From NCBI GenBank assembly GCA_017539565.1, contig JAFYCS010000097.1, positions 1-54,673 of the forward strand: a stretch of 54,673 nt of DNA, read 5' to 3'. The first letter of the stretch is position 1. The number at the start of each line of letters is the position of its first letter. A program made the translations under genes and the position numbers. This DNA comes from Lachnospiraceae bacterium (GTDB taxonomy: Bacteria > Bacillota > Clostridia > Lachnospirales > Lachnospiraceae). Shown here piece after piece: positions 475-32,951 of this stretch. The notes under the pieces are model-generated. The model did no database searches, was not told where the DNA came from, and saw only the letters and a program-made list of their open reading frames with translations.

Positions 475-3400
475 TCATAAGATCACACTCTTTATCTGTC
501 CAACCAGCTCTTTGGCCGCTTCCATATCATACTGGTCTACTGCGTATCTGAGTTTTTCCAAAAGCTCCTGCACCGAAGGCTCATAGCTGTACTCATCTAT
601 CTTCTTAAAGATATCTTCGGCCTCATTAACATCGTATTCGTCTACAACCTTGTCCATACTCTCAATATGTGTAAGTAACACCGCATTATCACCTGCCGGC
701 CGCTCCCCTTCATCTTCGGGGATCAGCTCCTTGAGCTTGTCCTTATAGGAACACCACTGCGAAATAAATACATCATGAAGCTTTTCTATAACGGTATCAT
801 CTCCTTCAGCTGCTGCCTTTTCCAATGTCGCTGCCATACCGGCTAATGGCACGATACCGATTATCGCAGCAGAACTCTTCATGGAATGCACCTTTATCCT
901 GTATGCATTCAGATCTTCTCTCATGCCGTTCAGCATATCAGCCGAAATATCGATACTGTTGTAGAAATCCCTGATGGTGTCCATAAGGAATTCATGATCG
1001 GGCAGGTGCAGCTTTGCATAATCCCAGTCAAGGCCGGAGATGGTCGGGTATTCATACTCTTCCTCATCTTCTTTATCCGTGACTGTTTCAAATGAATGCG
1101 AAGGTTCAGCTGCGGATTCCGTATACGGCTTTATCATATCCTCCGGCAGCTTTTCCTTGATGGCCTGCTCCAGTTTTTCTGATACTATGGGCTTGGCGAT
1201 AAAGCCGTCAAAGCCTTCCGAAAGATACTGTTCTTTTACTCCCGACAGAGCATTTGCCGTCAGCATATAAATGGGGATCTTGTCATAACCTTCGATCTTC
1301 CTCATGTGATGCAGTGTCTCCACGCCATCCATCCCCGGCATCATATGATCCAGAAATACCATATCAAAGCGCGTTTCCTCTGCCAGCTTAAGGGACTCCG
1401 CTCCGCTTGCCGCTTCACTCACCTGCATATTGAGATGTTTGATAAGGCTCTTAAATACTCTTAAGTTTAATGCATTGTCATCAACTACCAGTACCTTTGC
1501 ATCAGGTGCCGTAAAGCTTCCGCGGAATCTGATATCATCATCACCTGCCCCGCGTTCTATACTTCCCATCGGAGTGTGATCGACTATCTTCTGCTTTATA
1601 TCAAAATAGAACTTTGATCCCTTTCCGTAGGTACTCTCAACCTTAAGCTCACTTCCCATCAGCTTAAGCAGCTGAACGGTAATGTTCATTCCCAGGCCCG
1701 TACCTTCTATGTTACGGTTGCGTCCTTCTTCGATACGCTGATATGCTTCAAACAGTTTGGGGATATCCTCTTCCTTTATGCCTATACCCGTATCCTCAAC
1801 TTCTATATGAAGGTTCAGTTCTTCGCCTTCCGCGCTGCCTGAAACACGCAGCGTCACGCCGCCCTCATGGGTATACTTGACTGCATTGGTAAGTATATTG
1901 GTCACTATCTGCCGCAGTCGTACGTCATCTCCGAAAAGCACTGCCGGCAGGCTCTCATCAGCCTCTGCCTTCAGCAGTAGATCTTTATCCTGTGCCTTAC
2001 GGCTTATCATATTTACAAGGCTGCGTATAAGCTCCCTCAATTCGTATTCTACGGGTACCAGCTCCATCTTGCCCGATTCGATCTTTGAGGAATCCAGGAT
2101 ATCATTGATAAGAGCCAGAAGGGTGTTACCGGCTGAATATATATCTTCCGCGTACTCCCGGATCTCTTTTTCATTACTCTCCCTGAGTATCATCTCATCC
2201 ATACCCAGAACGGCATTTATAGGGGTGCGGATCTCGTGGGACATATTGGCCAGGAAACGGCTCTTGGCCTTGTTCGCATATTCCGCTTCTTCCTTCGCCT
2301 CACGTATCTGATCATACTGGCGGTTGATAACAGCCATATTTCCCATCTTAGCGATCATCCATGCCAGGAATGCAACGAGCATCGTTCCCACAAACACCAG
2401 ATAAAGCTTGTAATAACCCATCTCATAAAGCTCTGCGTCTTTATGCAGATAGAAAACCTTCTCCTTCTTTACGACGCCGCTCAGCTCATCCAGCACTTTG
2501 ATGCTTAAGCTGTAATCACCGTGAGGCAGGTTGTTGTAATACAGATCAGGCAGCTCACTCTGATGGAACAAAAGCGGCCTTGTATCAACGCCTTCGAGTT
2601 CGATTGCCAAAAGCGGATCGGATACCGCATAGTTTAATACCGCAGGCTGTATCTGTATCCTGCCTTTGCCTGAAGGTATCTGATATACGCCGTTTTCTTC
2701 AATGACAGCCTGCTCGCCTTCTTTTACGGAAGACAGCCTTATATCGTAATTATCGTTGAGGGTATTAAAGTTTTTTGTGTCAACGCTCCGCACTCCGTCT
2801 GCGCAGCACAGATAAAGCACATCCCCGAAAACGGCACTGTGCGCATTGGCAGTTAAAGATGCATTGAATCCCCGGTTCCTGTTAAGAAGTACATACTGAT
2901 ACTCCTCATCTCCCAGCAGATCCGAAAGGTTCACAACGTATATGCCGGCACTCGAGCTTACCCATGCAACTCCCGCTTTCGTGATATAAACATCGTAAAC
3001 GTTATTATAAGGGAAGTTCTCAAGACGCCTTACTTCAAAGCGCTCATTCAGGTAATACAGGCCGTTACTGGTAACAACGATAAATCCGCCCCCGGCAGGT
3101 ACGATACGCATCACGACCTGTGAAAGAAGACCTTCATCACTGCCGATATGGCCTGTAACCGATCCGCCGGAAATACGGTATATACCGCCACCGTCAGTAC
3201 CTGTAAGGATGCTTCCGTCTTCACACTCCACAGCGCAAAGCACCTGGGGGACCTCAAGTCCCTGCTCCGTACCTATACTGCCAACAGGCTTATAATCCTT
3301 AAAAAGATCTATACCGTCCGTAGATGCTGCCATTACTGTACCGTCCGAAAGCTCGAGACAGAAGCGGTATCTGCTTCCTAAAAGCCCGTCTGTCTTTTCA

Positions 3401-5196
3401 TTGAACGAGACGATATTTCCCAGCATATCCATTCCCATCAGGCCTTCCTGGGCATAGGTGGATATCCAGAGATGCCAGTGGCTGTCCCTGTAAAGATGCC
3501 TTATCCTTATCCCCTCAAGCCGCTCAGTCAGTGAATTCTCTACTTTTTTTCCTGTTTTCAGATCTATGATATGAAGACCGGTATCTGTACCGATATATAG
3601 ATTTCCCTGATCCGCCAACAGTGCATTTGCCGCAGAAAGCTGAATCCCGGCGGCAAGTGCCGGATCCGTAAAGGATGAAGGGCTCATCTTAAGTATGCCC
3701 TGCTGCGAAGATGTAAACCACAGATTACCCTGATCATCTGTGATGGCATCGGTAACAGCGGCATCAAAGCCCTCCTTGCTCAGATTCTCTACGTTATTAT
3801 ATCTGTCTATCAGGAACAGCCCTCTGGTTGCAGCCACCAGATATCCGTGTGCCTCTTCCGACCAGGCGATATGATTCACGTAATTAAGATCCTCGACGCT
3901 GAATCTGCCTCTCTCACTGAGTACTCCATCCGGGCTTATACTGTAGTGGTAAAGCATATCGGCTGAAGTTCCTGCCAGCACTTCTCCGTCAGGTGTGGCC
4001 GCTATCGCTGTGTAGCTGTATGAATCATCACTCTTTTTTGTGCAGACGACTTTTCCTTCCTTCATAACAAAGATAAGGCCGTTTTTTGTCACACCGGCGA
4101 TACAGCCGTCTCCCATATTCTTTAAGGAATATATGCAGCGCAGATCCGTTTCATCCGTAAACACCTTTATCTGTCCGTTATAAATACGGCACAGCTCCTT
4201 AGTGGTGCTGACATAAATACCGCCCTCATCATCTTCGCAGATCGACCTTATGGAATCAGCCGCCAGACCTTCGTTAACCGTATAGAAATCCACCTGTGCG
4301 GTATTTGTATCATAGCAGGCCACGCCGCTGTCGTTTGTTCCTATCCAAAGCCTGCCCGAATGATCTTCAAAAAGGTAGATAACATTATTTATGCGTTTGT
4401 CCGGCTGTATCTGTGAAAAGCTCCGGCCGTCATAACGGTAAAGCCCCGAATATGCTCCGGCCCAGATATATCCGTCGGCTGTCTGGGCTATGGTATTTAT
4501 CTCCGCAGAGGTAAGACCGCTGTCCTCCCCGTATACCACCGTACTGTGATCAGCTTTTATACTGCCTGCAGCCATAGTCTTTAAAGGCATCATAGCCCCC
4601 GTGACCATGGTAATGAGCACTATAGAAGTTACGATCTGCTTTTTATCTTTTATCTTACGTGCGCACCAGAGGATCAGCATCGTTACAAGTATGCAGATTG
4701 CCTTATCCGGCATGTTGACCAGGAGACAGCCTGCCAGACAGCGGAATGCCGCAAAGTTCACATTCTCCGCCAGCATATCCACCAGTGCATCCCCCCAGAC
4801 ATTACCGGTATATCCGTCATTAAAATACATATTGAGGGGTGTGCAGACCACACTCATGACAAAGCCGGCAAAAAGTGCCGTAGCTATAACCGAAAAAGAA
4901 TCTATCTTGCGGTCCCGTGGGAAGAATACTCCCACTGCCAGACCTCCGCATATGCTGACTATCGCAAAAGGAAGCATCCCGGGCGAGAAGAGTTCCATTA
5001 CCACATTCATAAGCGCACCTGAGACCGCACCTGCCACAGGTCCCAGTGTCACTGCAGATATGAATGTCCCGATGGAATCCAGCCACCACGGCAGATTGAG
5101 CTTACTTGCAAACATCCCGCCCACGATGTTGATCAGAGTCCCAAGAAGTATCAGGGCTATACTGCCCGCATTTATCTTAAATAACCATTTTTTCAT
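475..5196 (-). CDS. Hybrid sensor histidine kinase: ECF-S-like membrane domain + two-component propeller + HisKA/HATPase + receiver + Hpt
   Basis: A 1573-residue membrane sensor. Residues 1-210 are about six hydrophobic segments with a Gly-rich motif (DSIGTFISAVTLGPVAGAVS) that resembles ECF-transporter substrate-binding S components. Residues ~215-830 are repeated two-component-propeller blades (G-x-L/I-W-x-G/S-T). A Y_Y_Y-like beta domain follows, then one membrane helix (~930-952). The HisKA box FLANMSHEIRTP has its phospho-His near residue 986, and the ATPase shows NAVKY, DTGIGI and GTGLGM. The receiver FLDHMMPG has its Asp near 1283 and a K in AKPI. The Hpt domain HSMKSSA has its His near 1436. 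All relay residues are present. I chose ATG 5196 (MKKWLF): the longer reading frame to 5328 starts at a TTG, overlaps the purB leader and adds non-family sequence. No strong ribosome binding site is visible. No response regulator is adjacent. Confidence 0.88.
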   Translation of the reverse strand: MKKWLFKINAGSIALILLGTLINIVGGMFASKLNLPWWLDSIGTFISAVTLGPVAGAVSGALMNVVMELFSPGMLPFAIVSICGGLAVGVFFPRDRKIDSFSVIATALFAGFVMSVVCTPLNMYFNDGYTGNVWGDALVDMLAENVNFAAFRCLAGCLLVNMPDKAICILVTMLILWCARKIKDKKQIVTSIVLITMVTGAMMPLKTMAAGSIKADHSTVVYGEDSGLTSAEINTIAQTADGYIWAGAYSGLYRYDGRSFSQIQPDKRINNVIYLFEDHSGRLWIGTNDSGVACYDTNTAQVDFYTVNEGLAADSIRSICEDDEGGIYVSTTKELCRIYNGQIKVFTDETDLRCIYSLKNMGDGCIAGVTKNGLIFVMKEGKVVCTKKSDDSYSYTAIAATPDGEVLAGTSADMLYHYSISPDGVLSERGRFSVEDLNYVNHIAWSEEAHGYLVAATRGLFLIDRYNNVENLSKEGFDAAVTDAITDDQGNLWFTSSQQGILKMSPSSFTDPALAAGIQLSAANALLADQGNLYIGTDTGLHIIDLKTGKKVENSLTERLEGIRIRHLYRDSHWHLWISTYAQEGLMGMDMLGNIVSFNEKTDGLLGSRYRFCLELSDGTVMAASTDGIDLFKDYKPVGSIGTEQGLEVPQVLCAVECEDGSILTGTDGGGIYRISGGSVTGHIGSDEGLLSQVVMRIVPAGGGFIVVTSNGLYYLNERFEVRRLENFPYNNVYDVYITKAGVAWVSSSAGIYVVNLSDLLGDEEYQYVLLNRNRGFNASLTANAHSAVFGDVLYLCCADGVRSVDTKNFNTLNDNYDIRLSSVKEGEQAVIEENGVYQIPSGKGRIQIQPAVLNYAVSDPLLAIELEGVDTRPLLFHQSELPDLYYNNLPHGDYSLSIKVLDELSGVVKKEKVFYLHKDAELYEMGYYKLYLVFVGTMLVAFLAWMIAKMGNMAVINRQYDQIREAKEEAEYANKAKSRFLANMSHEIRTPINAVLGMDEMILRESNEKEIREYAEDIYSAGNTLLALINDILDSSKIESGKMELVPVEYELRELIRSLVNMISRKAQDKDLLLKAEADESLPAVLFGDDVRLRQIVTNILTNAVKYTHEGGVTLRVSGSAEGEELNLHIEVEDTGIGIKEEDIPKLFEAYQRIEEGRNRNIEGTGLGMNITVQLLKLMGSELKVESTYGKGSKFYFDIKQKIVDHTPMGSIERGAGDDDIRFRGSFTAPDAKVLVVDDNALNLRVFKSLIKHLNMQVSEAASGAESLKLAEETRFDMVFLDHMMPGMDGVETLHHMRKIEGYDKIPIYMLTANALSGVKEQYLSEGFDGFIAKPIVSEKLEQAIKEKLPEDMIKPYTESAAEPSHSFETVTDKEDEEEYEYPTISGLDWDYAKLHLPDHEFLMDTIRDFYNSIDISADMLNGMREDLNAYRIKVHSMKSSAAIIGIVPLAGMAATLEKAAAEGDDTVIEKLHDVFISQWCSYKDKLKELIPEDEGERPAGDNAVLLTHIESMDKVVDEYDVNEAEDIFKKIDEYSYEPSVQELLEKLRYAVDQYDMEAAKELVGQIKSVIL

Positions 5197-5253
5197 AATC
5201 TTGATGATATCACAAACATACATGGTCTTCCATATGCAAAAACGAAAAAGCAT

Positions 5254-5282
5254 TTGAACAAAAGATGGTAATATACTATAAT
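5254..5282 (+). promoter_or_regulatory. Promoter of purB
   Basis: -35 TTGAAC (5254-5259), a 17-bp spacer and a perfect -10 TATAAT (5277-5282), about 40 bases before the purB start. It lies in the 132-bp divergent gap between purB and the hybrid kinase. Confidence 0.75.
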
Positions 5283-5328
5283 ATCGCCTGGACACCGTTT
5301 CTAAATAACCGATCAGGAGGATGAACAA

Positions 5329-7749: not shown

Positions 7750-7784
7750 AAGATCCTTCGTCGCTGTGCTCCTCAGGATGACAT
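7750..7784 (+). repeat. Dispersed GATCCTTCG...CAGGATGACA repeat, copy 2
   Basis: AAGATCCTTCG, a variable centre, then CCTCAGGATGACATC. It lies in the 57-bp gap between the coiled-coil membrane protein gene and purC, just upstream of the purC ribosome binding site, so it is probably transcribed. Confidence 0.7.
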
Positions 7785-7789
7785 CACAA

Positions 7790-8992
7790 TCAATTAGCCT
7801 CATAGCGGCTTACTATGCCTTCTATCTCATCCGCATATTGGGGATAAGCCATTACCAGATCCTTTATCTTATCCTGGGCACGCCCGGTGATCTGCTTATT
7901 ATACTCAAGGTGTTCCCTGAGCTTGCCGCGCCGTCCGATCAGCGCATGCCTTACTTCCACCATCTCCCTGGGATCCACCAGCGCCCGGACCTGTCTGGTC
8001 CATATCTCCGGATCCTGTATACCGCATTTACGCAGGGTATCCGTAAGCTTCTCATAATAGTATTCCAGATCCTCACGCAGCTTCTCATCTTTGATGCGGG
8101 CGTTCATCACGTCTATGTAATCAGCCCAGTCAGCCTCCAGATCCTTTGATGAATTAACATCATACTTTGAATACATATATGATAAAAGATTGGTGTTGTT
8201 CACATAGCGGATCTTTACGGTGTTGTGCAGTACGGTGATCTTGTCACGCGCTTTTCTTAACTGCCTGATCTCCTTTGCCGCATCCTGGTATTTGACGTAC
8301 ATCACGGTAAGGGCTATCGCCCCCGCGCCGCCTGTCAGCATATATCCCCAGCTGACATCCATCTTGAACATATACTGCATTACCGCCAGCAGCAGTATCG
8401 CAAATATCACAGCCACCGCACAGATGACCGCCACGCCTTTACTGTTGGAGAGGGTGATGATCGCTTCCCTTGTCTGGTATCGGTTTGAGGCTTTCTCCGC
8501 CTCCATCTTACGCAGATCCATTTTCACCAGACGGCGGTATCTCTCTGCTTCCTTCATCTTCTCTATAGCCGCAGGGATACCGTCTTCGTAACGCTTTAAC
8601 AGGTCCATCCTGTAATCATCCAGGATCAGTCCGTCTTCAAATGCCTGGCGGCGTTCCTTCTCCAGCTTCTCTATCCTCTGGGCCTGGGTGGTTATGCTGG
8701 AACGCACATCTCCCACCAGGGATTCTATCTGCTCCATATCGGTGAGCAGAGCCGTGACCGCATCATATTCGCTCTGATACTGGGCTGCCTTTCCCGCAGC
8801 CTCACTCATCTGCTGTAGTGTCTCAAGAACATATACGGTACGTGTATCGGCATCATTAAAGTATCCGGCCTTCCTGGCAGCCACCGGCTTTTCATCTTCC
8901 AGTGACTTCTCGTCCCACTCTTCTTCCTCTTCCTCAAAGTCACCGAAAAACCACTTTTTCCATTTTTCCTTCAGCTTTTGAAAGAAACCCAT
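7790..8992 (-). CDS. Coiled-coil membrane protein, last gene of the DUF5716/5717 operon
   Basis: A 400-residue protein with no family I can name. The N-terminus is basic and aromatic (MGFFQKLKEKWKKWFFG), followed by an acidic run of six Glu. Residues ~50-185 are charged heptad-like helices, probably coiled coil. Two hydrophobic segments follow at ~187-209 and ~216-236, separated by a short turn, so both long helical ends should lie on the same side of the membrane, probably in the cytoplasm. The C-terminal ~160 residues are again helical. GGAG lies about 10 bases before the ATG and overlaps the upstream stop region, so it is translated with the TPR-like gene. I infer it is the membrane anchor of the complex encoded by the operon. 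This is not demonstrated. Confidence 0.75.
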   Translation of the reverse strand: MGFFQKLKEKWKKWFFGDFEEEEEEWDEKSLEDEKPVAARKAGYFNDADTRTVYVLETLQQMSEAAGKAAQYQSEYDAVTALLTDMEQIESLVGDVRSSITTQAQRIEKLEKERRQAFEDGLILDDYRMDLLKRYEDGIPAAIEKMKEAERYRRLVKMDLRKMEAEKASNRYQTREAIITLSNSKGVAVICAVAVIFAILLLAVMQYMFKMDVSWGYMLTGGAGAIALTVMYVKYQDAAKEIRQLRKARDKITVLHNTVKIRYVNNTNLLSYMYSKYDVNSSKDLEADWADYIDVMNARIKDEKLREDLEYYYEKLTDTLRKCGIQDPEIWTRQVRALVDPREMVEVRHALIGRRGKLREHLEYNKQITGRAQDKIKDLVMAYPQYADEIEGIVSRYEAN

Positions 8993-8999
8993 TTACCGA

Positions 9000-9815
9000 T
9001 CACTCCGACATATACTTTCTGTATCTTTCCTTTTCATCCAGAAGGAAACCGAATGCCTCCGCTGCGTATTCATTACGATCACTTCCCATGCGGAGCTTCC
9101 TCAGACTGTCCGTCATCTTGCCCCTGTCGGAATCGGAATACTGCCTGAGTGCCTGTTCCATCACTTCTTCAAGATGTGCAGATACAGTGGTATCCTTTTC
9201 AAAGTTTGAGATGAATTCCAGATATTCCATGTCTCCCAGCTGCATGCGCTTTGCTGCCAGCAGCGGGAACAGTATATCCTCCGACGGTTCCAGCTCATAA
9301 GCCTTCATATAGTATCCTGCCGACTCCTCAAAGCAGAAGAGTCTGGCATAGATCACACCCAGGTTCACATATATCCTGACCAGCTGGTGCTCATCGGGTC
9401 CGTCTTCCGTCATTCCCAGAAGACGTGTATATGTGTTCAGCGCCGGCATGAAATTGCCTCCACGCAGGAAGTAATCCGCCAGCACCATCAGCCTGCCTGT
9501 CTCAGGCATGCTGCGGTTGGCTCTGATAACCCTGGAGATCCGCTTTAATTCTTCATCATCAACATAATCAGCCGCGTTCAAGATCTCCGCCACAAAGCTT
9601 TCAAGCTTAACGCTCTGACGCCTTACAGTCTTCAGCTTTATCGCCAGATCCTTTAAGCCGCACTCATCAGCCACCCAGTCTATCAGCTCATCGGACGCAA
9701 AGTTATCCTCCAGAAGATCCGCATTCTCACAGATGTAATAACACAGTTCTTCCAGACACCAAACCCTGATATATGTATTTTTGATCGTCAGGGGCTCAGA
9801 TGCATAACGCCCCAC
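9000..9815 (-). CDS. TPR-like helical protein of the DUF5716/5717 operon
   Basis: A cytoplasmic, all-helical protein of 271 residues from the GTG at 9813-9815. This start gives MGRYASEPLTIKNTYIRVW followed by EELCYYICENADLL. I prefer it to the upstream ATG at 9911 (303 residues), because that start would overlap the previous gene by 65 bp and its sequence is less protein-like. AGGAG lies 11 bases upstream of the GTG. The central region (~residues 100-215) has TPR-like helical pairs: an LADYFLRGGNFMPALNTYTR block, then LGVIYARLFCFEESAGYYMK and AYELEP. It is the third gene of the operon, 31 bp after the Hsp70-like gene and 7 bp before the membrane protein, which fits an adaptor in one complex. 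I recognise the N-terminal EELCYY segment only from Lachnospiraceae proteins of unknown function. Confidence 0.75.
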   Translation of the reverse strand: MGRYASEPLTIKNTYIRVWCLEELCYYICENADLLEDNFASDELIDWVADECGLKDLAIKLKTVRRQSVKLESFVAEILNAADYVDDEELKRISRVIRANRSMPETGRLMVLADYFLRGGNFMPALNTYTRLLGMTEDGPDEHQLVRIYVNLGVIYARLFCFEESAGYYMKAYELEPSEDILFPLLAAKRMQLGDMEYLEFISNFEKDTTVSAHLEEVMEQALRQYSDSDRGKMTDSLRKLRMGSDRNEYAAEAFGFLLDEKERYRKYMSE

Positions 9816-9846
9816 ACACTGAAATACTCCTGTCAAGATCCTGTCC

Positions 9847-11160
9847 TCACAATATACTGAAACTGCTCTCCCATTCCAGGCCGGATGGAGCAAATATCTC
9901 ACCGAAGCCAAGGTCCGTAACTATAACGTTTACCTTGGTCTCCGACAGCATCGAAAGCTTAAGATGTATCCTGGTAGCCCTCCTCTGTCTCCTGGGAAGT
10001 CCTGTAAGATACATAGGTACAATCTTGGTATTCTTGCCGTTTAAAGGTGTGACTATAAAGTCCAGCCTGTCTCCGGGTTCCAGCATCAGCTCGCATTCCT
10101 TGTAGCTGTCATACCAGTTCCTGCCGGCATCGAGCAGGGCCATATATGCCTCTCCGCCGCCGCGCATGACGCTCATGCCGATATTGGCTTTGACCTTGTC
10201 CTGGCCCAGGAACACGCTTTTCTTTTCCTCTTCGGAAGGTTCGAGCTTCTCCCGTGCACCGTAACATGCACCTTTCGAAAAAAGGTTGTTACCCTTGAAT
10301 GCCCTGCGTCCTTTACATATATACTTAAGGCTTTCCGAACACCAGTCGCCCTCAAAGCCGTCTCCCAGCAGGTATACCGCTGAGACACGCCGGTCTTCCA
10401 GCATGCCGTAAAGTATCTGATAAAATTCCTGGTCCTTCTTATATTTCTTGCCTTCGGCGTTCTTTACTCCTTCGAATACCTCCGGAACGAAATCCTCGAA
10501 AATGCGCTCCGTCATTATAACAACATGAGGCCTGGTCTGTATGTTTTCGGAAAAGAGTGTCAGCTTAAGCCCTGTGCTCCTTAAGTCACAGATACAAACA
10601 TCCGCTATCCTGACATCCTTTGCCTGGTGCATGATGTAATGGTATGCACTCTCCGAATGGCTCTGGAAAAACACCCTCTCGGGTTTGAGCCTTAAGGTCT
10701 TTACGACCTGCCCCAGTATCGCTATCATCTGCTCATCCGGTTCCTCGACGGTTATCACTATAGCCGCAACCTTCTCAAGGGGTGCTACCGAATACAGCCT
10801 CGACAGGCACTTGCGTATGAACAGGGCCAGCAGGTCAACAGGATTGTAATCAACTGCTTCGACCTCGACTGCACGGCCGCTGCGAGCCCTCTCTATCAGA
10901 CGGTCTACAGGGAAAGCCTCATCTGCGGAGCTTAACTCCATGGCATCCTCACCGTAGGTCCATGCGCTCTCACCGTACTTCTTTGCAAGCATCGTAGGTA
11001 TGCACAGCCTGTCTGTCCCCGCTATAAGGCTGGGGGTTACAGGCTCCTCAGATCCGCAGGCATAGCTTACCTGTGAGAACTCGTCACTTAGATCTATTCC
11101 TATATAAAAGCGATCCTTGGCACCGCTTATAACATTTTTTATGCTCTCGATGCCACTCAT
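9847..11160 (-). CDS. Hsp70/actin-fold protein (DUF5716-like) with altered nucleotide-binding motifs
   Basis: A 437-residue protein whose layout follows the Hsp70/actin nucleotide-binding domain. Near residue 20 is FYIGIDLSDEFSQVSY (phosphate-1 position), then PTMLAKKYGESAWTYGEDAM (compare the Hsp70 P-S-V-V...V-G-E-x-A strand). AAIVITVEEP and FFQSHSESAYHYIM sit where Hsp70 has V-I-T-V-P and NEPTAAALAY. VCICDLRSTGLKLTLFS near 190 is at phosphate-2 (normally DLGGGT), and VYLLGDGFEGDW near 261 at the adenosine motif. The Gly/Thr-rich loops are largely replaced, so catalysis may be lost. The C-terminal ~110 residues look like beta strands. I recall this family as DUF5716; this was not checked. 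The start overlaps the upstream stop (TAATG), so the two are translationally coupled. Confidence 0.75.
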   Translation of the reverse strand: MSGIESIKNVISGAKDRFYIGIDLSDEFSQVSYACGSEEPVTPSLIAGTDRLCIPTMLAKKYGESAWTYGEDAMELSSADEAFPVDRLIERARSGRAVEVEAVDYNPVDLLALFIRKCLSRLYSVAPLEKVAAIVITVEEPDEQMIAILGQVVKTLRLKPERVFFQSHSESAYHYIMHQAKDVRIADVCICDLRSTGLKLTLFSENIQTRPHVVIMTERIFEDFVPEVFEGVKNAEGKKYKKDQEFYQILYGMLEDRRVSAVYLLGDGFEGDWCSESLKYICKGRRAFKGNNLFSKGACYGAREKLEPSEEEKKSVFLGQDKVKANIGMSVMRGGGEAYMALLDAGRNWYDSYKECELMLEPGDRLDFIVTPLNGKNTKIVPMYLTGLPRRQRRATRIHLKLSMLSETKVNVIVTDLGFGEIFAPSGLEWESSFSIL

Positions 11161-14100
11161 TACTTCTTTCCTCCGCGGCCTGATCCTGCCGGTATGAACA
11201 GTGCTTCCGTAAGGTAAGACTGCCTGTTATAATCTTCCATCAGCTTAAGGAAGGTTATCTCATCGTTCATATCCCTGGCTATGGCCATGTTATTCACAAG
11301 GGTGAAGCGGTCTTCTCCCTCTTCGTGCTCATCATCCCTGTATTCCAGCAATGCCGAACGTGTAAGACGCTCGTTACGCCCGTCTTCCTCGGTTATATAG
11401 TAATGTATGCGTTCCCCGTAAAAGAGTGAGAAACGTTTAACATATATGCCTTCATAAATATGCTGCATTTCCTCACGGCGGTATTCCGGCTCAGCTTCGG
11501 AACCGCTCTCGACCGCGTAGTGCAGCACTACCTGGCTGTCCTTGTGGCCCCTGTATTCGATAAAGCTCTGGCCTGCCATAACCCTGCAGAGAGGGTCTAT
11601 AGCAGAAAAGGCAGTGAAGAAGGGCAGGAAGATATCTCTCACGTGCATCTGCTCAAGGAATTCCCTGCAGAGCGCGATCTCGTCCTCATTAAACTCCCTT
11701 TCCTTTATATGATCCGCGGCCTTCTTAAGCCACCCCAGCACACATACGGTCTGTATGGGCTCCTCCAGACGGTAAAGCTGTGCGGCACGCTCAAACACCT
11801 TATCCTCCATGTTCTTCTGAAGGATGAAGTGATCGTAGCACAGACGCGCAAGATAAGCTCTCTCAAGCTCTGCACCCACACCACCGCTTAAGTGATCCAG
11901 GTAAATCGCTGCTTTCTCATCTATATCCGCACCGGTAAAGAGCACCTGAAGCATCATGCTCTCCAGCAGATCCTGTACGTCGAGCCCGAATGAATCGGCG
12001 GCTCTCCACAACTCCTTACGCCCCTTTAATGTTCCCTTGCCGTAACGCAGAAGGTACAGGAGTACCTCTTCATCATATCTGCCCTGGGCCATTATCCTGC
12101 AGCAGAGCTTGAGCATCTCCGGTATGTATTCCATATCGTTGCGTGCCATCAGCCTGTCACAGAGACGTACCAGTATCTTTATATCTATTCCTTCACAACC
12201 GCAAAGCTTGATCCACTCAAAGGCCTCTTCATAAAAGCCCCTGGCCACCATGATACGTATGCAGCGCTCCCTGTCCACGGCATCCATGGTAAGGGGTTCG
12301 AAACGTCCCAGCAGTTCATCCAGCGGAGCTATATCATCATTATCAAAATAGAACTCGGCCAGCGCTATCCTGATGCGCAGACGGTAGTCTTCATTTATCT
12401 CGTCACATTCGGAAAGACGCAGCAGCACCGCCGCATTCTCCCTGCTTACGGACAGGCTGTCGCCACCCTGTTCTGCAAGGCTTAACATTCCGCCTACGGA
12501 AAGCTGAGCCTCTGCTGTCAGCCGCTTTGAATCCGGCTTTTCCTTGAGCAGCGGCCGCATATCATACATACTCTCGTCGATATAGCGGTTCCCCCATTCA
12601 TCCTCGAGGAAGAGGCAGTAATGATCACCGTATACCGGTATGTACACCTCGTCCAGATAAAGGGGATAGACCTGCTCATCCTTAAGATGTTCATATACCA
12701 GTACCAGGTTAACGACACCCGGATGTTTGATCCTTATCTTCATGGTAAACATCAGCTCGGTATATGCATCCGTAAGCTCCTGTTCCTGCTTTCTTCCGGA
12801 GAGCAGCTTCTTATAGATATAGCCTAAGTTATCATCCACCCTGCCTTTTAATATCTGTTCCTTTGCAAAAGCCGTGATAACCGGCAGATACTGCTCATAG
12901 AGCTCCTGGTATTCATTCTTGTGGCGCAGTACATTCGCATAAAGGAAGGCATTGCGGTCCACATCCAGAGGCGAACGGTATGCAAAATACATAAGGACTA
13001 TACGGGGAAGACTTCCCTTGTAATCCAGAGGCGCGCTCATCACATAATATTCGTAAAGACGGCTCAGACGAAGTTCACGGTCCACCGCCAGTTTGTACCA
13101 TTTAAAATGCTCCCCGCTGCTCTTGTTCCCGCGCATGAGATGCAGGGTTATAGCCTCAAGGAGTACGATACTCTCCTCGGGATAATAGCATTCCTTAAGC
13201 AGAGAGCACATCTCTTCGGAATAAGAGTGTACCTCCATAGACAGAAGGGCGAAACGCTCCTTCATCTCCCTGGTCATTATGCCTCTCTTAAGCGCAAAAT
13301 GTATGAGGGCCAGTTCGAACTCGCCGATCTCTTCCATGCGCTTGGGTTCCTGAACGATTATATGATAGGCTTCGAGCAGCATGATCGGGGATGCATTACC
13401 GTAATTAACGTACTGATCCTTTATAAGCCGCCACTTCTTTTTCTCATTGCCTTCAAAATCAGGATCCATGGACATATATGCCCAGGCCAGACGCCAGTTG
13501 CCTTCATCATTGAAATACAGGCCTTTTACGTGGTCACACAGCCTGCGTTTATATTCATCATCATCCGAACAGAGGCTCTGCATATAAAGCCTGTATGCCT
13601 CCTGAGAAGTGCTCACCCCGTTCTCATCAGCCAGTACGGCCACGCGGTCAAGAATGCCCTGTGCCTCTTCGAAACGCTTCTGCACCACCAGCATCTGCGC
13701 CTGGTACAGACGGTATTCCAGGTCGTCCGGCCTGGATCTCAGAATATTGTCTATCAGCTTTTCCGCATCAGTAACAAAGTCGCCAAGAGTCATGGCTCCC
13801 GTTCTGTAGGCAAGATAAAGCTTGCACAGATATGCCCTGTTCTTATGCTCCGCATTCTCTGTTTCCCTGCAGGGAACGTTCACACACACCGGTATGACGA
13901 ACTCATCCAGCCTGTCCTTTACGATGATCTCGCCTAAGTTCTCCCCCGGGATCAGTGCTTCTCTTTCTATAACATAAGGTATCTCCGCAACATTGCCCGA
14001 AAAATCTTCATCCGTCAGTACATCCTTTTCCGGATACAGGAAATCCCCGCGGCACTCTATATGAAGTTCGGAAAAGCCCCAGCCTTCTTTGACCAGCTTC

Positions 14101-14738
14101 AAATGCCGGCGCATGCTCTTTCTGGGCAGGACCATATCCACCCGTTCCGTTTCCGGAGCGTATTCAGGCCTGGTCTTTTTACGGCTGACCTCAAGGAACA
14201 TCTCCATATTGGCCGAATTTGATGCCTGATGTGAGAAGCCCCTGTATGCCGTGATAAAACTCTTATCCGATCCTTCCAGCACATTCTTAAACGCAGGCGA
14301 ATAGAACAGATCCTGCGCCTCATTCCAGTCGGCCTTAGCCAGATTTGCAAAGTGGAAAAGGTTGCGTATCTCTCCCATGGAGGAGTCAGGAAGACTGCCG
14401 CTGACGACTATCTTCCATGGAAGCTCATATTCACCGTGATCGGAAACTATAAGAAGACGCCCTTCTCTTACCGCTCCGTGGGGCAGGCCGTGGGTGTCGA
14501 TAGAATATCTTATCTCGCAGTTCTTGCCTTCGAATTCTTCCTCTTCAATAATAATGCGCAGATCGTCGGAATAGATATATCCCTTTGCCCCGTCCGCGGC
14601 ATACACATTAAAACTGCCGCGCAGGACCATATCCGGAAGACTCTCCGAATAGATCTCGTCACACGAAAACGAGAGAGGAAGCCTCTCCTCTCCGAAGTCA
14701 TATTCACCGCTGAGTATCTTTTCGAGTATCTCTTTCAT
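11160..14738 (-). CDS. Giant beta-sandwich plus helical-repeat protein (DUF5717-like), first gene of operon
   Basis: A 1192-residue protein with no signal peptide or membrane segment, so probably cytoplasmic. Residues ~1-110 and ~210-310 look like two related beta-sandwich modules (repeated G-x-I-x-x-D, E-I-x-Y-x-I, E-x-x-x-P-W/V patterns). Residues ~320-1050 are long paired helices of TPR/HEAT type (for example YRLYQAQMLVVQKRFEEAQG). The C-terminus is mixed. I recall this as the DUF5717 family, seen almost only in Lachnospiraceae beside DUF5716; not checked. Start: ATG 14738 (MKEILEKIL) has no ribosome binding site but lies about four bases after the predicted transcription start, so the mRNA would be essentially leaderless. 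A longer reading frame to 14777 would begin upstream of the -10 element, in the -35 and terminator region, and is rejected. Confidence 0.75.
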   Translation of the reverse strand: MKEILEKILSGEYDFGEERLPLSFSCDEIYSESLPDMVLRGSFNVYAADGAKGYIYSDDLRIIIEEEEFEGKNCEIRYSIDTHGLPHGAVREGRLLIVSDHGEYELPWKIVVSGSLPDSSMGEIRNLFHFANLAKADWNEAQDLFYSPAFKNVLEGSDKSFITAYRGFSHQASNSANMEMFLEVSRKKTRPEYAPETERVDMVLPRKSMRRHLKLVKEGWGFSELHIECRGDFLYPEKDVLTDEDFSGNVAEIPYVIEREALIPGENLGEIIVKDRLDEFVIPVCVNVPCRETENAEHKNRAYLCKLYLAYRTGAMTLGDFVTDAEKLIDNILRSRPDDLEYRLYQAQMLVVQKRFEEAQGILDRVAVLADENGVSTSQEAYRLYMQSLCSDDDEYKRRLCDHVKGLYFNDEGNWRLAWAYMSMDPDFEGNEKKKWRLIKDQYVNYGNASPIMLLEAYHIIVQEPKRMEEIGEFELALIHFALKRGIMTREMKERFALLSMEVHSYSEEMCSLLKECYYPEESIVLLEAITLHLMRGNKSSGEHFKWYKLAVDRELRLSRLYEYYVMSAPLDYKGSLPRIVLMYFAYRSPLDVDRNAFLYANVLRHKNEYQELYEQYLPVITAFAKEQILKGRVDDNLGYIYKKLLSGRKQEQELTDAYTELMFTMKIRIKHPGVVNLVLVYEHLKDEQVYPLYLDEVYIPVYGDHYCLFLEDEWGNRYIDESMYDMRPLLKEKPDSKRLTAEAQLSVGGMLSLAEQGGDSLSVSRENAAVLLRLSECDEINEDYRLRIRIALAEFYFDNDDIAPLDELLGRFEPLTMDAVDRERCIRIMVARGFYEEAFEWIKLCGCEGIDIKILVRLCDRLMARNDMEYIPEMLKLCCRIMAQGRYDEEVLLYLLRYGKGTLKGRKELWRAADSFGLDVQDLLESMMLQVLFTGADIDEKAAIYLDHLSGGVGAELERAYLARLCYDHFILQKNMEDKVFERAAQLYRLEEPIQTVCVLGWLKKAADHIKEREFNEDEIALCREFLEQMHVRDIFLPFFTAFSAIDPLCRVMAGQSFIEYRGHKDSQVVLHYAVESGSEAEPEYRREEMQHIYEGIYVKRFSLFYGERIHYYITEEDGRNERLTRSALLEYRDDEHEEGEDRFTLVNNMAIARDMNDEITFLKLMEDYNRQSYLTEALFIPAGSGRGGKK

Positions 14739-14748
14739 ACAGATTAAC

Positions 14749-14777
14749 AGTATAACATCATCCGGCAAAAAAAACAA
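14749..14777 (-). promoter_or_regulatory. Promoter of the DUF5717-DUF5716 operon, overlapping the upstream terminator
   Basis: Minus strand: -35 TTGTTT (14772-14777), 17-bp spacer, -10 TATACT (14749-14754). The -35 lies inside the U-tract of the lipoprotein gene's terminator. The expected start, about 14742, leaves 3-5 bases before the ATG at 14738. Confidence 0.65.
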
Positions 14778-14802
14778 TCGGCTGCCTTATTCAGGCAGCC
14801 GA
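14764..14802 (-). terminator. Intrinsic terminator of the lipoprotein gene
   Basis: Minus strand: TCGGCTGCC and GGCAGCCGA form a 9-bp stem around a TGAATAA loop, followed by TTGTTTTTTTT. It lies 27 bases after the stop of the 492-residue lipoprotein gene, and its T-run doubles as the -35 region of the next operon. Confidence 0.85.
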
Positions 14803-14828
14803 CCGCAAGATAATGTTCAAATTGCTTT

Positions 14829-16417: not shown

Positions 16418-18487
16418 TTAGAGCAATAAGCCCATTATCTTGTTGCTTCTTGCCACGAATTTGCTCATAGCCTCGGGATCCAGCGGTGCGTTCTGGATAA
16501 GAGCCAGATCGTAGAGCTGTTCGCAAAGGAGCTGTACGTTCTCTCCTTCCTTGTCCTCGAGTATCTTCTGGACCAGCTTGTTATTTGCATTAAGCACCAG
16601 GGTGTAACCCTCTTTGCCAAGGCCGCCCATGTTGAGTCCCTGCATGGAGTACATCTTCATCATGTCCTGCATGCGGCGTGTCTCCTCGGATACTGTTATC
16701 ATGGAGGAGATATCCTTGTTCTTAAGCTTCTCAACCCTGACTGTCAGGTTATCCTTCTTGATGGCCTTCTTGAATATCTTTGAAAGCTCCTCAGTCTGGG
16801 CATCCAGCTCTTCCTGGGCTTTCTTGGATGTCTTTGCCTTAAAGTCATCGGTAAGATCCGCATCTATGCGAAGAAACTTAACTCCCTCATTCTTGCTCTC
16901 CAGCTGGGTGATGAAGGGCTGGTCTATCTGATCCTTGAGTACCACCGCATCCTTGCCGGCTTTCTTAAACATGGCGATATACTGGCTCTGCTGCTGCTCG
17001 TCGGTCACATAATAGATCTGCTTATCCTTCTTCTCTTCCTCAGCGCCTTCGGCCTTCTCCTCTTCGGGAGTATCCTCTACCACTTCGGCTTCCACCTTAT
17101 TGCCGTCTGCATCCTCTGCCTTCTCCTCGTCGCCGGGATCGATAGGCTTTACTTCAAGGCACTCGGGCAGGCTCTCGTACTTGCCGTCCAGGTTCTTGAA
17201 TAAGATGTAATCCGTCATCTTCTCACAGAACTTGTCATCCTTTAAGCAGCCGTATTTAATGAAGGGGCTGATATCGTCCCAGTATTTCTCATACTCCTCA
17301 CGCTCGGTCTTGCACATGCCGGAAAGCTTGTCCGCCACCTTCTTGGAAATGTATTCGGATATCTTCTTAACAAAACCGTCATTCTGCAGTGCGGATCTGG
17401 ATACGTTGAGGGGCAGATCCGGGCAGTCGATAACGCCCTTTAAGAGCATAAGGTATTCGGGGATAACTTCCTTGATGTTGTCCGCGATGAATACCTGGTT
17501 GTTGTAAAGCTTGATAACACCTTCGATGGACTCGAACTCGATGTTGATCTTAGGGAAGTACAGTATACCCTTTAAGTTGAAAGGATAGTCCATGTTAAGG
17601 TGTATCCAGAAGAGGGGCTCCTTGTAATCGTGGAATACCTTACGGTAGAACTCCAGATACTCCTCCTTTGTGCAATCGTTGGGATGCTTTGACCACAGTG
17701 GCGTGGTGTCGTTAAGAGCCTCCGGACGCTTCTTTATCTTAAGGCGCTTCTTGGGCTCCTCCTTATCATCCTCTTTCTTTTCGGGTACTATCTCTTCGAT
17801 GACAACGTCGGTATCTTCCTTCTCATCCTCATCGATGGTCTGGGTAAGCTCTTCGCCCTTCTTTTCAAGATAGATCTCATAAGGCATAAAAGAGCAGTAT
17901 TTCTTAAGCACTTCTTCTGCTTCATACTTGTTGCAGAACTTAAGGCAGTCCTCGGTAACATGCAGGATGATCTCTGTACCTACCTCTGTACGGTCCCCGT
18001 CCTCCATGGTGTATTCGGTGCCGCCGTCGCAGCTCCAGTGTACCGCCTTGGATCCTTCCTTATAGGAAAGAGTGTTGATCTCTACGGTATCGGATACCAT
18101 GAATGCAGAATAAAATCCCAGACCGAAGTGTCCTATGATCTGGTCCTCATTTGCCTTATCCTTATACTTCTCTATGAAATCGGTCGCACCGGAAAATGCG
18201 ATCTGTGTGATGTATTCTTCTACTTCCTCTGCCGTCATGCCAAGACCGTTATCTACTATTCTTATGGTCTTGTCCTCGGGGCTCACCTCAACAAGTATCT
18301 TTGCCTTATAGTCATCCGGAAGGGTATACTCGCCCATCATCTCAAGCTTCTTTAACTTGGTGATAGCGTCGCAGCCGTTGCTGACCAGCTCCCTGTAGAA
18401 GATATCATGGTCCGAATATAACCATTTTTTGATAATGGGAAAGATATTTTCACTGTTGATGGATAAAGTTCCCTGTTTTGCTGCCAT
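16418..18487 (-). CDS. htpG: Molecular chaperone HtpG (bacterial Hsp90)
   Basis: A 689-residue cytosolic ATP-dependent chaperone. The GHKL ATPase domain is intact: YRELVSNGCDAITKL, then VDNGLGMT and GHFGLGFYSAFMVSD. The middle domain shows PLFWIHLNMDYPFNLKGILY and CPDLPLNVSRSALQND. The protein is ~60 residues longer than E. coli HtpG because of two acidic/charged insertions, near residues 215-260 and 470-515 (Glu/Lys/Asp-rich). It ends NKIMGLLL with no MEEVD. AGGAAG lies about 9 bases before the ATG. A good promoter lies at 18533-18561, with a perfect CIRCE just upstream of it, so HrcA probably controls it. This differs from Bacillus subtilis, where htpG is outside the HrcA regulon. Confidence 0.97.
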   Translation of the reverse strand: MAAKQGTLSINSENIFPIIKKWLYSDHDIFYRELVSNGCDAITKLKKLEMMGEYTLPDDYKAKILVEVSPEDKTIRIVDNGLGMTAEEVEEYITQIAFSGATDFIEKYKDKANEDQIIGHFGLGFYSAFMVSDTVEINTLSYKEGSKAVHWSCDGGTEYTMEDGDRTEVGTEIILHVTEDCLKFCNKYEAEEVLKKYCSFMPYEIYLEKKGEELTQTIDEDEKEDTDVVIEEIVPEKKEDDKEEPKKRLKIKKRPEALNDTTPLWSKHPNDCTKEEYLEFYRKVFHDYKEPLFWIHLNMDYPFNLKGILYFPKINIEFESIEGVIKLYNNQVFIADNIKEVIPEYLMLLKGVIDCPDLPLNVSRSALQNDGFVKKISEYISKKVADKLSGMCKTEREEYEKYWDDISPFIKYGCLKDDKFCEKMTDYILFKNLDGKYESLPECLEVKPIDPGDEEKAEDADGNKVEAEVVEDTPEEEKAEGAEEEKKDKQIYYVTDEQQQSQYIAMFKKAGKDAVVLKDQIDQPFITQLESKNEGVKFLRIDADLTDDFKAKTSKKAQEELDAQTEELSKIFKKAIKKDNLTVRVEKLKNKDISSMITVSEETRRMQDMMKMYSMQGLNMGGLGKEGYTLVLNANNKLVQKILEDKEGENVQLLCEQLYDLALIQNAPLDPEAMSKFVARSNKIMGLLL

Positions 18488-32579: not shown

Positions 32580-32951
32580 TTAAGCTGTCTTTACATTTGA
32601 ATACTTCTCTATATATGCCATGGCTTCCTCAGGGTTAAGGTTATAGTTCTTTTCCAGCTTTTTCCGGATTATTTCTACCGGTATCTCATCTTCCAGTTTA
32701 TCTTTAATAAATATCCCTATTCCTTCGGCTTTACCTTCTGCTATTCCTTCCCGGTGTGCTTTGATCACGTCAAGCTCTATTACCTGTCCACCCATAACTT
32801 CCACCACCTTTCCCTGGACTTTTTCTTTCTTCCTGGTCAGATTATATGCAACTTTGTGTGTTAAGCTTATTATAACACTTTTAGAAAATACCGACAAGCG
32901 ACCTGCTGAGGCAAGATCCTTCGTCACTACGTTCCTCAGGATGACATACAT
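32580..32951 (-). pseudogene. C-terminal remnant of an Rpn/PD-(D/E)XK-type transposase-nuclease
   Basis: An open frame of 123 codons. Only the last ~75 residues are protein-like: HREGIAEGKAEG and the helices IPVEIIRKKLEKNYNLNPEE with an AYIEKY end. This is the typical tail of Rpn-family recombination-promoting nucleases (old PDDEXK transposase family), with its R/K-E-G repeat. The catalytic N-terminal ~230 residues are missing, and the 5' part of the frame is built from a copy of the dispersed repeat (32913-32946). A start at 32795 (MGGQVIELDVI) would give a 71-residue product. I treat it as a broken gene. Confidence 0.65.
32913..32946 (+). repeat. Dispersed GATCCTTCG...CAGGATGACA repeat, copy 4
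   Basis: AAGATCCTTCG, variable centre TCACTACG, then TTCCTCAGGATGACAT. It is the same layout as copy 2 and lies at the junction with the transposase remnant. Confidence 0.7.

Follow-up and report, generated by a model that had tools for sequence, protein, structure and literature searches.

A stretch of 54,673 nucleotides from a Lachnospiraceae bacterium (contig JAFYCS010000097.1; hereafter the window) carries four open reading frames (ORFs), g1 to g4, at 7790..14738, all on the minus strand, which from their sequences look like genuine genes. Structural modelling places the product of the second, g2, a member of the Pfam family DUF5716, in the Hsp70 superfamily by fold and domain order, with a predicted actin-fold nucleotide-binding domain (NBD) followed by a substrate-binding beta domain (SBD-beta). 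Its partners are g1 (DUF5717), a TPR-like protein (g3) and a coiled-coil membrane protein (g4). g2 and g1 belong to their families by sequence, and Pfam describes both families as being of unknown function. In other families of the order Lachnospirales, orthologs of these genes lie in a larger locus with up to four Hsp70-like genes (Hsp70-1 to Hsp70-4, below H1 to H4) and a gene for a GrpE-like protein. We propose, giving the idea an even chance, that the operon in the window encodes a small chaperone-scaffold complex around a lidless pseudo-Hsp70, which works independently of ATP and derives from a larger ATP-driven locus.

The Hsp70 fold of DUF5716 and its missing parts

9847..11160, minus strand: g2, DUF5716, predicted lidless pseudo-Hsp70, 437 aa (PF18980; hhalign, AF2, VIA, Foldseek)
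10204..11115, minus strand: g2 residues 16-319, Hsp70 NBD fold, most of subdomain IIB missing, active site not conserved
9850..10188, minus strand: g2 residues 325-437, SBD-beta, no alpha lid after it

The g2 protein matches PF18980 with an E-value of 2.7e-98 and 329 bits (gathering cut-off 34.7). Its kinship with Hsp70 is visible only via outgroup orthologs, profile comparison and fold: searched directly, the window protein gave no match to the Pfam HSP70 model PF00012 at E-values up to 1, and the DUF5716 family profile found no credible match in PDB. An outgroup ortholog, in contrast, matches PF00012 at 1.9e-16, and hhalign joins DUF5716 to Hsp70 at 98.4% (E 6.2e-15, 409 columns). The AF2 model of g2 has a pLDDT of 92. 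VIA aligns residues 17-437 to Hsp70s, across both NBD and SBD-beta, and Hsp70 is the best Foldseek match of the model (E 4.1e-19). The Hsp70/actin fold named in a first-pass annotation of this DNA is thus supported for g2.

Several parts of a DnaK-type chaperone are missing from this fold. Seven active-site residues were scored, namely D8, T11, K70, E171, D194, G197 and T199 in DnaK numbering. All seven are present in every H1 (24/24), H3 (20/20) and H4 (18/18) protein, and in none of the H2 (0/24) or DUF5716 (0/80) proteins; in DUF5716, Lys70 and the TT and GGGT motifs are lost. Since H2 fails as well, the degeneration extends beyond the family without the partner Hsp70s. For this count, Hsp70 ORFs of the second locus set were taken above 380 aa only, the split H4 of L047/L091 was left out, and the assignment of two of the 24 H2 proteins (L244, L255) has a score of only 24-27 bits. 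The 80 DUF5716 proteins are those nearest to the window, and for L187, whose gene is broken into two ORFs, the longer piece was counted.

The distance from the phosphate-2 motif to the adenosine motif is 76 (60-78) residues in the 80 DUF5716 proteins and 60-79 in a wider test of 22, compared with 146 (126-153) in the 24 H2 proteins and 144 in the DnaK of locus L052. The gap spans approximately residues 185-268 of the latter, which we take to be most of subdomain IIB. One row labelled as the DnaK of the window's genome proved to be a wrong-frame ORF and was excluded from the wider comparison and from the tree. From the adenosine motif to the C terminus, DUF5716 has 172 (168-174) residues, and DUF5716, H1, H2 and H3 all end without a lid (medians of 172-199 residues, versus 313 in the L052 DnaK). 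By sequence, then, DUF5716 departs from the canonical DnaK type in its active-site residues, the SBD-alpha lid and subdomain IIB. GrpE opens DnaK through a rotation of IIB, and every exchange factor targets this subdomain (excerpt of PMC4753570). The "nucleotide-binding-like core" of the first-pass annotation is doubtful, given the lost active-site residues and the loss of most of IIB.

Conservation of the operon and the larger locus

Conservation was followed in loci from relatives, which are mostly Lachnospiraceae, many of them metagenome-assembled genomes from rumen and gut (nearest RGIG2882, 89% identity; named strains include NC2008, Butyrivibrio proteoclasticus P6B7, Acetatifactor muris and Parablautia intestinalis). 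The 80 loci used are the best-scoring 80 of at least 564 relatives and are, therefore, biased towards the window. Of these, 74 extend at least 4 kb beyond g1, and g1-g2-g3-g4 occur in this order in 71 (including L187 with its broken g2), the other three having no g4. Pairwise distances of the four proteins correlate at 0.92-0.96 over 73 loci, which fits genes passed on as a set. We also picked, from g1 or g2 matches, 22 loci representing 22 further genera of the family; g1, g2 and g3 were present in 22/22 and g4 in 9/22, counting L106, where g2 and g3 are fused, and L060, where only the C-terminal part of g1 was recognised. Consequently, the core consists of three genes, and the fourth is optional. 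The conserved co-occurrence and order, which the first-pass annotation had proposed to check, thus hold for all four genes among close relatives and for g1-g2-g3 across genera; the genes stay neighbours in relatives, so that the annotation is not refuted on this count. No other neighbour is constant, the commonest cluster (valS by eye) being found in 11/40 loci.

DUF5717 was detected in 147 of 150 genomes of the family (146 of 149 genera), with one match per genome in most. DUF5716 is present in one of the three misses, G345 (67% complete), and both families are missing from G353 and G415. Within the window's genus, 23 of 24 genomes were positive, as were 7 of the 16 genomes that each represented another family of the order. 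PF18980 matched 10 of 291 genomes of the class and a g1 C-terminal profile 5 of 398 of the phylum, all of them in the window's family; versions too diverged for these profiles may exist outside the order.

In the other families, DUF5717 is often encoded by two adjacent genes (approx. 400 and 900 aa), followed by several Hsp70-like genes. At L049/L092 (genome G029) these are H1 (PF00012, 1.8e-77), a 645-aa protein ending in a GrpE domain (PF01025, 1.4e-14), H2 (PF18980, 1.8e-25, plus the PF00012 match at 1.9e-16), H3 (2.5e-57) and H4 (2.5e-95), which has a vWA domain in the position of the lid; the set is completed by a membrane protein with a coiled coil and by a TPR protein (2.2e-21). The GrpE domains of the outgroup proteins (cluster c8) score 54.6 and 46.1 bits (cut-off 25.8), and the GrpE-like protein weakly matches the GrpE structure 4ani_A (E 0.0017). 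Among 20 further regions seeded by the GrpE-like gene, the order g1C-H1-GrpE-like-H2 was found in 17, with a peptidase gene between in L247 and a short ORF between in L248. H3 is present in 17, H4 in 17, and the TPR protein was recognised in 13. In L245, L249 and L250 g1 is not beside the genes, L241 is without H4 and g3, and L243 and L253 are without H3. A valS-like gene adjoins the locus in five cases (G026, G029, L243, L244, L255). In G026 (L047, 340-2384), H4 with its vWA domain is split into two overlapping ORFs; of the outgroups, this genome has the DUF5716 ortholog closest to Lachnospiraceae.

The window operon is colinear with this larger locus minus H1, the GrpE-like gene, H3 and H4, and in a tree DUF5716 groups with H2, the sole degenerate Hsp70 of the larger locus. 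The first-pass annotation had missed this locus with its three intact Hsp70s and GrpE-like protein. The DUF5716 profile, which also detects other Hsp70s, found one gene per locus in the flanks of the 80 loci (in two pieces in L187). The window's genome has one DnaK beside GrpE, one more intact-motif Hsp70 on another contig, three weaker partial Hsp70 matches and one true GrpE. At E 1e-5, a profile of the GrpE-like protein matched 78 of the 196 genomes sampled from the order; 14 other families account for the matches below 1e-20, and weak ones resemble ordinary GrpEs by ORF size. Only one match, a 239-aa ORF at 1.1e-6, lies in the window's family, whose share of the 196-genome sample is not shown. 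The same profile, which does match within the order, found 0 of 391 genomes of the class at E 1e-10. Nearly all sampled genomes of this major gut and rumen family carry the operon, which looks like the remnant of a larger, unusual Hsp70 machine.

The Hsp70s of the larger locus also stand apart from DnaK and HscA: H1 to H4 (one protein each) fell below the NCBIfam cut-offs for DnaK (best 349.7 bits versus 648) and HscA (287.4 versus 708.55); the type comparison covers DnaK and HscA, as no HscC model was among the NCBIfam matches listed. Three prokaryotic Hsp70 types, DnaK, HscA and HscC, are named in one review, with the SBD-alpha lid included in a figure legend (excerpt of PMC8215388), and eubacterial genomes are said in another to encode a single exchange factor, GrpE (excerpt of PMC4753570). 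The larger locus departs from both pictures. Among the literature matches listed, all from open-licence papers, there was no account of DUF5716, DUF5717 or the locus, which is no proof of absence, and no prior description of the Hsp70 relation; the sole paper among them naming DUF5716 concerns curcuma derivatives.

Proposed function and rival explanations

In the larger system, the DUF5717 solenoid would hold clients, on which the active Hsp70s and the GrpE-like factor run an ATP cycle, and DUF5716 would be a subunit that binds substrate without cycling. Lachnospiraceae would have lost the ATP-driven part and retained DUF5717, DUF5716 and the TPR protein as an ATP-independent holder. Its SBD-beta would grip extended segments rapidly and with low affinity, beta-sandwich and TPR surfaces might cradle the client or partners, and in lineages with g4 the complex would be tethered to the cytoplasmic face of the membrane. 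Clients may then go on to the housekeeping DnaK, in analogy to yeast Ssz1 of the ribosome-associated complex (RAC), which works with Ssb. A wider version, to which we lean slightly less than evenly, is that Lachnospirales possess a dedicated chaperone machine outside the DnaK and HscA types (approx. 7-9 genes), which in Lachnospiraceae was stripped to an ATP-independent holdase or scaffold of the core genome. The machine would comprise three lidless active Hsp70s (one with vWA), a giant GrpE-like factor, the pseudo-Hsp70, the PapD-TPR giant, the TPR protein and alternative membrane coiled-coil subunits, and its ATP-driven parts would have been shed together with the subdomain at which the exchange factor docks. 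If so, this is a natural Hsp70 machine that kept the grip and lost the motor, and the locus presents two natural stages of one system, with and without ATP-driven partners. The losses of subdomain IIB and of the GrpE-like gene match, from which follows a clear prediction of which Hsp70 the factor served.

A close likeness among known systems is Ssz1, an Hsp70 fold without the SBD-alpha lid but with a complete SBD-beta; it takes up ATP but leaves it unhydrolysed, acts alongside an active Hsp70 and passes on nascent chains (excerpt of PMC7083937). Ssz1 is, like DUF5716, a lidless Hsp70 fold and among the top VIA matches of g2. However, its ATPase chain (4gni_B) has 384 residues versus approximately 300 in the g2 NBD, and its partner is the J protein Zuo1, whereas those of DUF5716 are DUF5717 and a TPR protein. 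With the DnaK-GrpE(-DnaJ) system, the larger locus shares the Hsp70 NBD/SBD-beta and the pairing of Hsp70s with a GrpE-domain protein. It differs in that its Hsp70s score below the DnaK and HscA cut-offs and have no lid, and in the size of the GrpE-like protein (564-644 aa in 20 loci, 279 aa in G026). In G027 a dnaK-grpE pair (by eye) exists besides the large GrpE-like gene.

Several points weigh against the chaperone-scaffold proposal. The Ssz1 match is tied with DnaK and not specific, so that Ssz1 is taken as a fold relative and no orthology is claimed; the hand-over to DnaK is drawn from this analogy. No J-domain was among the listed Pfam matches of the four window and ten outgroup proteins, partners encoded elsewhere not having been searched. 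Loss in Lachnospiraceae, rather than gain elsewhere, is suggested by colinearity and the shared degenerate H2, and not by a rooted species tree; the loss of H1, H3 and H4 was tested genome-wide in the window's genome, and elsewhere refers to absence near the operon. Further, g4 is missing from 13 of the 22 genus-level loci. Finally, the phosphate-1 aspartate D8 is kept in 76/80 DUF5716 proteins and the adenosine-motif glycine in 80/80, by which weak nucleotide binding seems possible.

These kept residues, together with the ATP binding of Ssz1, speak for a rival in which DUF5716 is still a nucleotide-switched chaperone, weakly binding ATP and changing shape without hydrolysis, regulated by DUF5717 and g3 and a housekeeping DnaJ or GrpE. 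As the Lys70, TT and GGGT motifs and most of the exchange factor's target, IIB, are gone, we consider it rather unlikely. A similarly low probability goes to the idea that the complex serves the structural assembly or quality control of a single, specific and conserved complex in the membrane or envelope, with the pseudo-Hsp70 as a fixed adaptor instead of a general holdase. Such a role would fit the near-universal occurrence with mostly one match per family genome, the coiled-coil membrane subunit seen in many lineages (g4, or c20, which is unrelated to it and described below) and the PapD-like domains of g1; it does not fit the 13 loci without g4 or the lack of a constant neighbour.

Far less probable is a defence or conflict system, although parallels exist. 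The GAP1-N2 GTPase-centric systems of Kaur 2020 combine HSP70, GrpE, a second HSP70, and FNIII fused to TPR or DnaJ (excerpt of PMC7159879), and CnuD of CoCoNuT is a degenerate Hsp70 NBD/SBD adjoining HEAT-like repeats (excerpt of PMC11090510, in which the authors favour RNA binding). But no GTPase (McrB included) or nuclease domain was found in 22 Pfam-scanned locus proteins, the flanking genes not having been scanned systematically, and up to four Hsp70s occur here. Moreover, a locus present in nearly every genome of the family, with protein distances as tightly correlated as given above, contrasts with scattered conflict systems. PADLOC matches were only weak: one for the window proteins (E 0.033) and, in the outgroup, PDC-M71B (2e-9, TPR protein), PDC-M61B (5.5e-9, Hsp70-3) and JetC (4.7e-5, g4). 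The least probable of all is an actin-like cytoskeletal element, which the first-pass annotation had offered beside a membrane-tethered chaperone and an envelope-assembly complex. Apart from the actin-fold NBD little speaks for it: Hsp70s match best across both NBD and SBD-beta, the residues of the active site are gone, and the outgroup ortholog matches HSP70 and PF18980, not MreB, at E-values up to 0.1. Of the earlier guesses, the chaperone comes nearest to the complex proposed here, and the cytoskeletal one finds no support in a fold with a substrate-binding beta domain.

Other putative subunits and genomic surroundings

11160..14738, minus strand: g1, DUF5717, 1192 aa (PF18984/PF18983; VIA; AF2 pLDDT 87, pTM 0.59)
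14397..14681, minus strand: g1 residues 20-114, beta sandwich 1, PapD/ASH-like
13869..14171, minus strand: g1 residues 190-290, beta sandwich 2, PapD-like
11577..13856, minus strand: g1 residues 295-1054, alpha solenoid with a beta module at 665-729 (AF2 secondary structure; weak TPR matches below cut-off)
11343..11567, minus strand: g1 residues 1058-1132, C-terminal beta domain (AF2 secondary structure)
9000..9815, minus strand: g3, TPR-like protein, 271 aa, GTG start, TTG 9836 possible (TPR_2 below cut-off; outgroup ortholog)
7790..8992, minus strand: g4, coiled coil - two transmembrane helices - coiled coil, 400 aa, optional subunit (coiled coil by eye)
8378..8434, minus strand: g4 transmembrane helix 1, residues 187-205 (hydropathy)
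8297..8347, minus strand: g4 transmembrane helix 2, approx. residues 216-232, by eye, below the hydropathy threshold in the window protein
14774..14806, minus strand: terminator-like hairpin belonging to the gene before, with a stem of 14 pairs and then a T run

The g1 protein matches PF18984 (E 7.3e-256, 851.7 bits) and PF18983 (E 1.1e-82, 278.1 bits; gathering cut-off 25 for both). Its model combines two Ig-like (PapD/ASH-type) beta sandwiches, a TPR-type alpha solenoid with an inserted beta module, and a C-terminal beta domain containing some of the few columns invariant throughout the order (FYGE..YY region); the giant helical-repeat protein expected from the sequence is thus seen in the AF2 model. 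The best PDB match of the DUF5717 profile reached only E 0.31. Structure look-ups with the model gave, for the most part, TPR solenoids and various Ig-like sandwiches, from which only the fold class was taken. Neither g3 nor g4 reaches the cut-off of a Pfam family. The TPR-like character suspected for g3 (TPR_2, 21.2 bits, cut-off 27) becomes clear in its outgroup ortholog, which matches TPR_2 at 2.2e-21, far above the cut-off. In L106 (11834-13888), DUF5716 and the TPR protein form one fused 684-aa ORF, in which positions 28-96 of the DUF5716 profile are unmatched.

Hydropathy gave two transmembrane segments in 70 of 73 g4 homologs, in line with the coiled-coil membrane anchor supposed earlier; as a core part of the complex, in contrast, g4 is discounted by its presence in 9 of 22 genus-level loci. 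In the 13 genomes that have no g4 at the locus, a g4 profile detected no convincing copy in other places, both positive controls being matched; one extra match, in G454, covers 71 positions (E 5.8e-5). In loci where no g4 was seen, another coiled-coil membrane protein, c20, precedes DUF5717 (L048 5770-7155, L051 5625-6932, L052 6709-7650, L238, L239, L240, L242, L248). It is unrelated to g4 and weakly resembles ZorA models over the coiled coil only (ZorA 2.9e-5). No locus has both proteins, a statement fully covered only in L239, L240, L242 and L248, as the other four of the eight end before the place where g4 would lie.

ORF coordinates agree with the earlier placement of the genes: the g1 stop and the g2 start have one base in common (TAATG), the g2-g3 gap is 31 bp if g3 starts at GTG 9815, the most plausible start (TTG 9836 being an in-frame alternative), and g4 starts 7 bp after g3. 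Because the terminator-like hairpin precedes g1, the operon probably begins with g1, and the hairpin is its probable upstream border. Against the nearest relative in the locus set, L156, dN/dS of the four genes is 0.03-0.10, which is only indicative, dS being above 1. No Rfam families or tRNAs were found in the window, and NCBIfam gave no useful match for the window proteins.

Downstream, purC (named by eye) follows g4 after 57 bp. A palindrome-like repeat lies between them (window 7752-7782, minus strand), with 10 copies at up to one mismatch in the window's genome (reversed control 0) and a looser copy at window 32915-32945. Two genes upstream of the operon, beyond a lipoprotein-like gene, lies an htpG-like gene (Hsp90, by eye; 16418-18487, minus strand), which puts an Hsp90 near the Hsp70-derived operon. 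In L042, L043, L045 and L046, which belong to the same genus, the two neighbour clusters are again found upstream. Elsewhere in the window (475-5328, minus strand), a 1617-aa ORF joins in one chain, as judged by eye, a membrane domain similar to an ECF-type S component with a beta-propeller sensor, a histidine kinase, a receiver and an HPt domain.

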